The notes beneath the pieces are model-generated. The model did not search any database, had not been told where the DNA came from, and worked only from the letters and a program-made list of their open reading frames with translations. A program made the translations under genes and the position numbers. Shown here piece after piece: positions 49,764-52,868 of a stretch of 64,000 nucleotides of DNA (its first letter is position 1; the number at the start of each line of letters is the position of its first letter). The stretch comes from Candidatus Limivivens merdigallinarum. Lineage in GTDB: Bacteria > Bacillota > Clostridia > Lachnospirales > Lachnospiraceae. Location: contig DVFT01000139.1 in NCBI GenBank assembly GCA_018713105.1, forward strand, positions 1 to 64,000. Direction: 5' to 3'.

Positions 49764-49885
49764 CTATATGGGGCGGATGATTCAGGGAAACTTACCGAAA
49801 GGAATGTGGAAAAGGGATATCAAAAGGATACATCCTTCTGCTATGATGGAGATAGAAAAAGCAGAGAATGCTGGGAGGTAGAACT

Positions 49886-51691
49886 ATGAACAAGAAACGT
49901 ATTTGGTTCCTGGTATGCGCCGGCTTTCTGGCGGCATATCTCATGATCATGGCAGGTGTTACCATCTATCTGTCTTTTCGGTATGAAAAGCAGGCTGTGG
50001 ATCGGGAGGAGGATTTTTGGATGGAAGTTTCGGCAGCGCTGGCAGCGGCGGAGGGGCTGGGTGATACCGGAGAAGCGTATTTAAACCGGCTTCAGCTGGA
50101 AAAACAGCTTTTGGACAGCAGGGTGCAGACGACCCTGTGCGCAGGGGAAAAACCGTCCCAACAGCTTCAGGCAGTCTTTTTTGACCAGGAGGGTGAGGTC
50201 TATGCCAAAGCAGCAGAAAACGGGCTCCTGTCCCAAAATGAACTGTTTGGACCGATTTTTCCGACGGTCAGTGGGGAGAATGAGAAGCCTGTCTTTTGGG
50301 ATCTTCGGATGCCCGTGGAAGAGATGGAGAAGGTCGGAACCTATGTTGAGCAGAATTTTGCCCACTCAGGGATTGACCATCCCTATGAGATTTCCGGTAT
50401 GGCGGAAGAGAAAATACTGGAAAGCGGACAGTCGGTCTATTGGCTTACGGAAGTTACCGTTCGGAAAAACACATGGGTTCCCTGCACAAGGGAGGAGATG
50501 CAGAATTATCCGTCGGCCACCAGCCGCACCGGTACTGGTGTCGCCGAGTTTTATGGATTGGAGAAGCAAGAAGAGGTTTACTCCTGGAAGCAGGACGCAC
50601 CATTCCCAAGGAAGGCGGAAACAGGAATCCGTAACGTCAGTCTGAATGCCGTAGAGTACGATTTTATGCTGCGCCTGAGAAAGGACGACTACCGTGATTC
50701 CACGGAATTTGACGCTATGATGAAGGAGAGGAGTCAGGATGGCTTCCTTCAGGGGGCGGAGATTCCTTCCATGATTCAGGATGGGACATTGGATACGTCT
50801 GCCGGTGTGGCTCAGATGTCGAGAGGCTTTTTTCGCAGGCAGTCCTATGCCGTCAGCCGTGTCGAATACCTGGGAACGCCGTATTATCTCTATATTTCCT
50901 CCGTGCGCTATCCGCTTTGGGAGGCTGTCCGTAATCTTAAGGTTCTGTATTTGTATAGCATCGCGATCACTGCAGCGGCAGCGTTGTTCTGCGGCGTTTG
51001 GATGGTTCGGATGCAGAACAAGCGCCAGAGGCTGGAGGATGACCGAAAACAGTTTACCAATCTCCTTGCCCACGAGCTGAAAACTCCCCTTGCCATCATC
51101 GAGAATTTCTCCGAAAATGCTTTGGAGGAAGAGAATGCAGGCAAAAGGCAGCATTATCTGGAACAGATCGTCAGCCAGACCGGGCAGGCGGATGAGATCA
51201 TACGGAGGATCGTGATCCTGTCCGAGCTGGAGAATGAGAAACTTCCTGTATTGGAAAGCCGATTGGATATCAGGGAGCTCTATCAGAAGGAGCGGGATCG
51301 ATTCCTTCCTGCCATAGAAGAGAACGGGCTGGTGCTGTCCGAAGAGATATCGTCCTGCATCCTTCCGGTCAATGAGCGGCTGTTTTCCCAGGTGATCGGA
51401 AATCTGCTCTCCAACGCAGTCAGCTATACTCCATCTGGAGGAGAGATCCGGGTAAAATTGACATCCGATCACTTCTGCGTGGAGAATACCGGAAGCCATC
51501 TCTCCGAAGAGGAGCAAAAACACCTCTTTGATCGCTACTATCATGGGAAAGACCGGGGAGAGGAGAAGGGGCATTTGGGAATCGGGCTGTACCTGGTAAA
51601 GACGATTGCGAAGCGATACCATATGAACATCAAGGCGTCCAACGTCCCTTGCGGAGTCCGGTTTGAACTCCAGTTTCGGTGCAGGCAGTAA
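49886..51691 (+). CDS. sensor histidine kinase
   Basis: Two TM segments, LLAHELKTPLAIIENFSENAL H-box, N and G boxes (LLSNAVSYTP, GHLGIGLYLVK). Confidence 0.92.
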   Translation: MNKKRIWFLVCAGFLAAYLMIMAGVTIYLSFRYEKQAVDREEDFWMEVSAALAAAEGLGDTGEAYLNRLQLEKQLLDSRVQTTLCAGEKPSQQLQAVFFDQEGEVYAKAAENGLLSQNELFGPIFPTVSGENEKPVFWDLRMPVEEMEKVGTYVEQNFAHSGIDHPYEISGMAEEKILESGQSVYWLTEVTVRKNTWVPCTREEMQNYPSATSRTGTGVAEFYGLEKQEEVYSWKQDAPFPRKAETGIRNVSLNAVEYDFMLRLRKDDYRDSTEFDAMMKERSQDGFLQGAEIPSMIQDGTLDTSAGVAQMSRGFFRRQSYAVSRVEYLGTPYYLYISSVRYPLWEAVRNLKVLYLYSIAITAAAALFCGVWMVRMQNKRQRLEDDRKQFTNLLAHELKTPLAIIENFSENALEEENAGKRQHYLEQIVSQTGQADEIIRRIVILSELENEKLPVLESRLDIRELYQKERDRFLPAIEENGLVLSEEISSCILPVNERLFSQVIGNLLSNAVSYTPSGGEIRVKLTSDHFCVENTGSHLSEEEQKHLFDRYYHGKDRGEEKGHLGIGLYLVKTIAKRYHMNIKASNVPCGVRFELQFRCRQ

Positions 51692-51718
51692 GAAAACAGG
51701 AGAAAGGAAGGGAGAAAC

Positions 51719-52408
51719 ATGGCAAGGACGTTGCTTTTGGCGGAGGATGACAAACTGTTGTCCGAAGCCATCTCAGACTACTATGAACGGAAGGGATGGG
51801 CGGTAGTTCGGGCATACAGCGGGAGAGAGGCGCTTACTCGTTACCGGGAGGGAGAATTTGACCTTGTGCTGCTGGATATCATGCTTCCTGACGGGGATGG
51901 TTTTTGGGTATGCCAGGCACTCAGGCGGGAGAGCGATATCCCGGTTTTCTTTATCACAGCCAGGGCGATGGAGAAGGACAGGCTGAAAGGGTATGAGCTT
52001 GGGGCTGACGACTACGTGGTCAAACCGTTTTCCCTTCCAGTACTCTATGCCAAGACCGAGGCGCTGCTCTTTCGGATTCGGGGGAGCCGGGCGGAGGATC
52101 AGTACCGGATGGGGGAACTGAGCCTGGATTGCGGGAACAGGGAGGTGAGGGTTCGGGAGCAGACCGTGTCTCTTAGTCCCAAGGAATATGAACTGCTGTA
52201 TTATCTGATGAAACACAAAGGGCGCATCCTAAGCCGCAGCCAGATCTTGGACGCTGTATGGGGATATGACTTTGAAGGTACGGAACGGGTGGTCGATAAT
52301 CACATCAAAAAGCTCCGAAAAGCGCTGGGACCATGCCAGTCCTATCTCCAGACCATCCCGAAGGCGGGATACTGCCTGAAAATAGTAGTTGACAAGAACT
52401 CCCTCTAA
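51719..52408 (+). CDS. OmpR-family response regulator
   Basis: LLAEDDKLLSEAI, LVLLDIMLPDGDGFWV, winged-helix C-terminus RVVDNHIKKLRKAL. Confidence 0.93.
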   Translation: MARTLLLAEDDKLLSEAISDYYERKGWAVVRAYSGREALTRYREGEFDLVLLDIMLPDGDGFWVCQALRRESDIPVFFITARAMEKDRLKGYELGADDYVVKPFSLPVLYAKTEALLFRIRGSRAEDQYRMGELSLDCGNREVRVREQTVSLSPKEYELLYYLMKHKGRILSRSQILDAVWGYDFEGTERVVDNHIKKLRKALGPCQSYLQTIPKAGYCLKIVVDKNSL

Positions 52409-52417
52409 GCCTATAAT
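52389..52417 (+). promoter_or_regulatory. perfect consensus sigma-A promoter
   Basis: TTGACA(52389-52394)-N17-TATAAT(52412-52417), spanning the end of the response-regulator ORF. Confidence 0.88.
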
Positions 52418-52468
52418 GTAGATGTGTCATTTAATATTGCCGCATCAAGTGAGGGCAAAGGACCATCC

Positions 52469-52614
52469 GCAGGTTCTGCCCTGAGAGGGAATCAGGTGAA
52501 ATTCCTGAACGATCCGGTCACTGTAAGCCAGGAGTGTTGTCTCAAGATCCCATTGCATACCCAATACTGTGAGAAGGGGAGACAAGATGATGAGAGGTAA
52601 GTCAGGAAACCTGC
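52469..52614 (+). ncRNA. cobalamin riboswitch aptamer
   Basis: P1 GCAGGTT/AACCTGC; GAGAGGGAATCAGGTGAAATTCCTGAACGATCCGGTCACTGTAAGCC and AAGTCAGGAAACCTGC match the B12-riboswitch core; candidate 3' hairpin at 52661-52682. Confidence 0.92.
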
Positions 52615-52660
52615 TTGGTGTGTGAGATGTGCTTCCGTGAAGAGCAAAACATCCAACGCA

Positions 52661-52801
52661 GGACGGAATTCCGCAGCCGTCCGGGATCGATGTCAGCCAT
52701 GGGTAGGCAGGCATATTTTTATGAGCAGTTGTATGCATCTCGACGCATATTAAACATACACAAATACCTCCTTCTGAAGCAGGAATTCCGCACCTGCTTT
52801 C
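52661..52801 (+). other. two hairpins with identical AATTCCGCA loop 3' of the riboswitch
   Basis: GGACGG-AATTCCGCAG-CCGTCC (52661-52682) and AAGCAGG-AATTCCGCA-CCTGCTT (52777-52799). Confidence 0.75.
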
Positions 52802-52813
52802 GAATGCAGTAGA

Positions 52814-52857
52814 ACCCCGTCCGGAGATTCCAAAATGGAATTTCTTTGCGGGGTTTT
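52814..52857 (+). terminator. strong intrinsic terminator ending the riboswitch RNA
   Basis: ACCCCG...GAGATTCC-aaaat-GGAATTTC...CGGGGT followed by TTTACTTTTG. Confidence 0.85.
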
Positions 52858-52868
52858 ACTTTTGTATC

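Follow-up and report, generated by a model that had tools for sequence, protein, structure and literature searches.

The window analysed here is a 64,000-nucleotide stretch of the Candidatus Limivivens merdigallinarum genome (contig DVFT01000139.1), in which a cobalamin riboswitch lies downstream of folD and a histidine kinase/response regulator pair (49868-52408), and upstream of a GGDEF gene and spoIVA. TTGACA at 52389-52394, a 17-nt spacer and TATAAT at 52412-52417 match the promoter consensus at 12 of 12 positions, just as a first-pass annotation of this DNA had claimed, and scored highest of the three promoter-like sites in the 1.8 kb scanned. The segment 52430-52632 matches the full length of the Rfam cobalamin model (RF00174, model positions 1-189; E 8e-23; 96.5 bits against a gathering score of 31.5). 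This search had been recommended, and it confirms that the B12 aptamer is complete, but two labels given to its parts were wrong. The RF00174 alignment puts P1 at the CGCAUCAAG/CUUGGUGUG helix rather than at GCAGGTT/AACCTGC, and GCAGGTT sits within a variable P2 insertion missing in relatives; AGGTGAAATTCCT, taken for the L5 region, is the P4/L4 hairpin, the true L5 being a CCGG loop at about 52513-52516. The mislabelling is harmless, since nothing depends on those labels. As RF00174 finds no second cobalamin riboswitch in the window, cobTUS has none, as had been stated. The window genome contains two further cobalamin riboswitches, both ahead of protein genes, whose products, read from the ORFs, resemble the cobalt transporter CbiM and the binding protein BtuF.

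A run of U's after a GC-rich inverted repeat at about 52813-52855 closes the unit; a simple terminator scan missed this terminator because of its long loop. The strong intrinsic terminator reported earlier is thus real, and the start of the unit at 52389 also holds, but its end should be moved from 52857 to about 52863. Aptamer and terminator are some 180 nt apart, and the 440-nt RNA is more stable than its dinucleotide shuffles (z -3.0; 0/100). No other Rfam family matched the region at E<=5. No conserved ORF is present in the ~440-nt unit: a small ORF with a Shine-Dalgarno site common to the relatives was not found, in line with the earlier reading. Neither the window nor the relatives read have anything coding opposite the unit. 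A minus-strand gene with AGAAGGAGGT as its Shine-Dalgarno was considered and rejected, as the short frames differ between species and, judged by eye, no frame is common to them.

Table 1. Features of the orphan riboswitch unit (window coordinates)
Feature	Position	Strand	Basis or remark
Promoter, TTGACA-N17-TATAAT	52389..52417	+	Overlaps 3' end of response-regulator gene; same distance to aptamer in 18/18 units
P0, 5' strand, predicted RNA 5' end GUGUCAUUUAAUAU	52424..52437	+	MFE; permutation test; three Watson-Crick types at pair 4
Cobalamin riboswitch aptamer, class-I, RF00174	52430..52632	+	96.5 bits
UACCC in peripheral P11 loop (L11), proposed kissing partner of H1 loop	52558..52562	+	Co-occurrence
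UGAGA, proposed latch, 5' side	52623..52627	+	Pairs with 52738-52742; in 16/16 rows, 1/5 pairs varies
P13 hairpin, GAUG...CAUC, loop UUCCG (L13)	52626..52653	+	3' strand ACAUC can pair with H1 5' strand as putative antiterminator; mechanism by analogy with PMC10653944
Second UUCCGCA-loop hairpin	~52661-52682	+	UCCGCA/CCCGCA loop count
H1, terminator-like hairpin, AUGUC..GGGUA..GGCAU then U-run	52690..52720	+	Covariance models R1, R2; both-side changes in 3/5 pairs
UCUCG, proposed latch, 3' side	52738..52742	+	Composite alignment
P0, 3' strand AUAUUAAACAUACAC	52747..52761	+	Pairs with 52424-52437; same basis as 5' strand
UACCUCCUUC, anti-Shine-Dalgarno segment with UACCUCCUU	52765..52774	+	UACCUCCUU invariant, 10/10 group A
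H2 hairpin, loop AAUUCCGCA	52776..52800	+	UCCGCA/CCCGCA loop count
Intrinsic terminator, AACCCCG...CGGGGTT and T-rich tail	52813..52863	+	Also formed in MFE; relatives' terminators each unlike in sequence

Homologous units in the Lachnospiraceae

A DNA search of 61 relatives recovered the aptamer together with ~170 nt downstream of it in a congener, Candidatus Limivivens intestinipullorum (G002), and in Hominisplanchenecus faecis. R1, a covariance model built on the downstream part without the aptamer, was applied to 397 family genomes and newly found G166, G371, G275, G147 and G205, each of them immediately preceded by an RF00174 aptamer; scores of 126-151 bits were obtained for the window, G002, G029 and G166. 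All of the stronger R1 matches had such an aptamer directly upstream and none of the weaker ones scanned did, so that L043, L044 and others down to L050 were put down to chance. One weak match, G178 (L051), proved on inspection to be a genuine member. A model from P13 to H1 (R2) yielded one additional orphan unit and a frequency of roughly a dozen in the 397 sampled family genomes. At E<=5e-4, R2 had no match outside the family among 295 genomes sampled at order level, many of the listed ones again being of the same family. All 14 loci recovered when 84,980 species genomes were scanned for a pattern came from Lachnospiraceae.

In all, 18 homologous orphan RNAs, the window included and all from Lachnospiraceae, were assembled into group A (n=10, with the window), group B (n=5; L065, L069, L071, e.g. 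L071:1415-1690, L073 and L077) and group C (n=3; L068:3849-4150, L074:1282-1590 and L089). Those scanned scored 87.7-106.1 bits with RF00174. A sigma-70 site precedes the aptamer in all 18 units, its -10 lying 162-190 nt before CAGGAAACCTGC, i.e. before the aptamer end. Promoter scores were 10.5-12.5 in most of group A and all of group C and 9.5 in group B, against peaks of 8-9 in control windows. No description of these RNAs was found in the open full-text literature, which was the scope of that search.

The R2 matches L090-L092 and L094-L099 were rejected. They are ordinary cobalamin riboswitches whose terminator resembles H1 and whose L11 lacks RCCC. Seven non-orphan riboswitches (L090, L091, L092, L095, L096, L098 and L010) carry another common element after the terminator, ~150-300 nt past the aptamer (GATTAAAYGGCAGG..., with CCTCCGC close to it in several of them); this may be one more RNA motif that has not been reported.

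Conserved helices, hairpins and 3' domains

The predicted RNAs start with GUGUA in most of group A, with GUGCA in Murimonas and groups B and C, and with GUGAAUUAC in H. faecis and SUG64, and their P0 partners (UACAC, UGCAC or GUAAUUCAC) stand directly before the 3' domain. Pair 4 of this closing helix is U-A, C-G or A-U in a composite alignment. Since the alignment was composed of hand-picked segments, a permutation test is the fairer evidence: cognate segments gave -9.1 kcal/mol against -6.1 for permuted ones (0/20000 permutations with all 18 RNAs, 3/20000 with ten representatives), statistics that come from related, not fully independent, sequences. P0 is also present in the MFE structure of the window RNA. 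Covariation downstream of the aptamer, which the first-pass annotation had proposed to look for, is therefore found in the relatives, where the 3'-flanking RNA is conserved. The UGAGA:UCUCG latch is uncertain, because UGAGA:UCUCR is nearly invariant and so offers it little support; in the window MFE structure, UCUC is paired with a different GAGA. In Hominisplanchenecus-type RNAs (L005:1811-1835; L027, reverse strand), GGGGGUAAUUCAC has the anti-Shine-Dalgarno as an alternative local partner (GGGGGUA:UACCUCC), in competition with P0, possibly as a clade-specific switch.

P13 with a GCUUCC...AAAGC hairpin also occurs in the protein-linked riboswitches of the family, with a terminator immediately after it, and H1 occupies the position of that terminator in the orphan RNAs. 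Three of the five H1 pairs counted vary on both sides. Pairing of ACAUC in P13 with GAUGU in H1 is possible in most members and weak in G178 and group C. According to two papers (PMC10653944, PMC5359240), L13 belongs to the expression platform, and a loop of the CCATTG...GAGAAGG type is the peripheral P11 loop; by analogy, that loop in these aptamers would be L11. All 18 orphan aptamers have RCCC in L11 together with GGGU downstream in the H1 loop, and none of 17 protein-linked ones has RCCC there; L11 RCCC had not been a criterion in the searches that found the orphan loci. A loop-loop kiss between L11 and H1 is proposed from this co-occurrence. Covariation between the two loops looked convincing by eye (UACCC:GGGUA vs AACCC:GGGUU) but failed an energy permutation test, in which no cognate preference appeared (8892/20000), and co-occurrence alone is claimed.

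The 3' domains differ between groups. In group A, UACCUCCUU is invariant, UACCUCCUUC is present in nine of the ten RNAs, and the arm, which resembles the 16S rRNA 3' end, adjoins P0. Each group-A RNA also has one or two UCCGCA/CCCGCA loops (10/10; shuffled mean 0.012), and none occur in the eight RNAs of groups B and C. Group C has a hairpin presenting CCUCCAUAAA; CCTCCATAAA in the hairpin loop (CCUCCAU) of L068, L074 and L089 would be a second way of displaying an anti-Shine-Dalgarno. Group B carries a different conserved domain (GUGGAGAAUG...UACUCGCC...CACAUUC). Its GTGGAGAATG...TACTCGCCGGGC...GTGCACATTC lies before the terminator and is absent from Rfam, and the group B and C members tested had no Rfam match in their 3' domains at E<=1. 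The predicted accessibility of the anti-Shine-Dalgarno arm is mixed (unpaired 0.15-0.93 in the ensembles). A 12-nt complement does not recur anywhere in the window genome, and no 12-nt target is common to the relatives, where the few complements are unrelated. A search for an extended antisense target in the window's own genome gave 16/18 as its best other match, antisense within coding-like sequence, which was judged to be chance.

A proposed corrinoid-controlled RNA and its alternatives

We consider it probable, if well short of certain, that the unit is a stand-alone small RNA gene under corrinoid control, stopping at H1 when corrinoid is bound and giving a trans-acting long RNA when it is scarce. 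From a promoter that looks constitutive, RNA polymerase would make the aptamer first. With corrinoid bound, a kiss between L5 and L13 would stabilise P13, so that H1 could form and stop transcription, leaving a short RNA of ~290 nt. With corrinoid scarce, the P13 3' strand (ACAUC) would pair with the H1 5' strand (GAUGU), and transcription would continue. The new 3' segment of the read-through RNA would fold back onto the 5' end as P0, and this ~440-nt form would present the anti-Shine-Dalgarno arm and the UCCGCA hairpin loops. The long form might then act in trans, most likely by pairing to the ribosome-binding sites of target mRNAs. In a repressing corrinoid riboswitch that was tested, corrinoid-bound P13 permits the terminator and the freed P13 3' strand is the antiterminator, as set out in PMC10653944; short RNA with B12 and long RNA without it are predicted here because ACAUC:GAUGU matches that arrangement. 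An orphan B12-riboswitch unit making a regulatory RNA, as first suggested, is supported by these sequence comparisons; that B12 alters its length, and that it acts in trans on this kind of target, we infer.

A closed riboregulator of full length might instead change shape rather than length, with H1, having ceased to be a terminator, docking on L11 and B12 exposing or hiding the 3' arm. The U-run has been lost from H1 in at least 5 of the 18 RNAs (a good one is missing in G147, G178, B_73, B_77 and C_74) with the stem and GGGU loop kept, P0 encloses aptamer and H1 as one domain, and the RCCC/GGGU pair of loops separates orphan from protein-linked aptamers. However, U-runs still end most group-A H1 hairpins, and the permutation test speaks against a cognate L11-H1 preference, so that we regard this alternative as unlikely.

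Less likely still is a cis-acting riboswitch with a long leader, in which the terminal hairpin would be the expression platform and B12 would gate read-through into GGDEF or spoIVA. The GGDEF gene (52930) is indeed on the same strand, 67 nt past the terminator, and in group B those loci that extend far enough have galE next in the same orientation, unlike groups A and C, whose neighbours are convergent or changing. Limivivens intestinipullorum and G178 lack GGDEF and have spoIVA next. A convergent gene follows in both Hominisplanchenecus-type genomes (H. faecis and SUG64; hydrogenase-like), in Murimonas (homocysteine-methyltransferase-like) and at two of the three group-C loci; the next gene is NuoE-like in UBA3316, H. 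murintestinalis and Robinsoniella (~280-340 nt past the terminator in UBA3316 and Robinsoniella) and peptidase-like in G147. These names are sequence readings, while the window genes were checked against Pfam. None of the 18 RNAs has behind it a B12 gene, whose presence directly downstream in related genomes the first-pass annotation had held to tell against an orphan unit, and the structure of the RNAs themselves is conserved. Moreover, the terminal hairpin lies ~180 nt past the aptamer and its sequence is not conserved, whereas H1 is at the position of the family's terminators. On the upstream side, folD directly precedes the RNA in G178, H. murintestinalis and UBA3316, and the kinase/regulator pair between them in the window therefore looks inserted; the ancestral gene order suggested by these sequences is folD - RNA - spoIVA.

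A sponge of the EutX/Rli55 type, whose 3' domain would capture an ANTAR antiterminator at low B12, has the same order of parts, and the window genome does encode one ANTAR protein. We rejected it as very improbable: the RNAs show no enrichment of A1/G4 hexaloops (0.28 per RNA vs 0.18 in shuffles, and the window RNA has none), 9 of the 11 carrier genomes, that of the window among them, lack EutB, and the sole ANTAR protein found in the window genome adjoins glutamine synthetase, not eut. This protein (L079:1111-1662) is flanked by glutamine synthetase and an aminotransferase-like gene, a context that suggests nitrogen control rather than ethanolamine. A decayed riboswitch left over after gene loss would fit the lack of a gene directly downstream but is scarcely credible, since promoter, aptamer, P0, H1 and 3' arm persist across many genera and show compensatory changes.

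Returning to the corrinoid-controlled small RNA gene, we advance a broader proposal more tentatively, at rather less than even weight. The orphan RNAs may form a Lachnospiraceae family of B12-sensing trans-acting RNAs, with one sensory core (class-I aptamer, 5'-3' closing helix and L11-H1 contact) joined to exchangeable effector domains: the anti-Shine-Dalgarno arm with UCCGCA loops, the CCUCCAU loop, or an unrelated structured domain. If so, B12 would set the translation of distant genes through RNA-RNA pairing.

Comparison with known B12-sensing RNAs

To our knowledge, only a few noncoding RNAs controlled by riboswitches have been reported. The proven B12-riboswitch RNAs are a protein sponge or act as antisense at their own locus, and we know of no description of distant-gene translation control via RNA-RNA pairing for EutX, Rli55 or AspocR. 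An anti-Shine-Dalgarno family, if borne out, would add riboswitches that drive mRNA-pairing sRNAs, and its carriers include cultured gut anaerobes (Robinsoniella peoriensis, Murimonas intestini and Hominisplanchenecus faecis). Gene-less riboswitches would thus not be mere annotation debris; the evidence suggests that B12 here controls a small regulatory RNA and not a neighbouring gene.

AspocR of Listeria, which is antisense to pocR, is likewise a noncoding RNA under a B12 riboswitch, but the orphan RNAs face no opposite-strand coding sequence in the window or the relatives read. The family's class-I riboswitches ahead of btuF, cbiM and further B12 genes (L001, L003, L007 and L008) share the aptamer and, in most of those read, the P13 hairpin GCUUCC...AAAGC followed by a terminator-like hairpin; they differ in preceding protein genes and in having neither RCCC in L11 nor the common 3' domain. 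The Priestia megaterium metE riboswitch likewise allows pairing between the 3' strand of P13 and the 5' strand of its terminator, but it controls a protein gene in cis, and the passages of PMC10653944 consulted describe no closing helix at the 5' end.

The nearest precedents in layout, and proven ones for AdoCbl setting short versus long form, are EutX of Enterococcus faecalis, whose RNA is short with B12 and long without it (PMC5821096), and Rli55 of Listeria monocytogenes. Like them, the orphan RNAs are independent noncoding units with their own promoter, a 5' B12 aptamer, a 3' effector domain and no protein gene (none of the 18 having a B12 gene downstream), and possibly a B12-controlled stop, which is predicted in the window family. 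Unlike them, the orphan RNAs have no ANTAR hexaloops, most carriers have no eut locus, and the 3' arm is an anti-Shine-Dalgarno or another structure. Moreover, the eut aptamers are of class IIb (PMC11477304), whereas the orphan RNAs match the full class-I-type RF00174 model. Thus, the orphan RNAs are like EutX and Rli55 in layout without being members of that group, and their aptamer itself is a plain member of RF00174.
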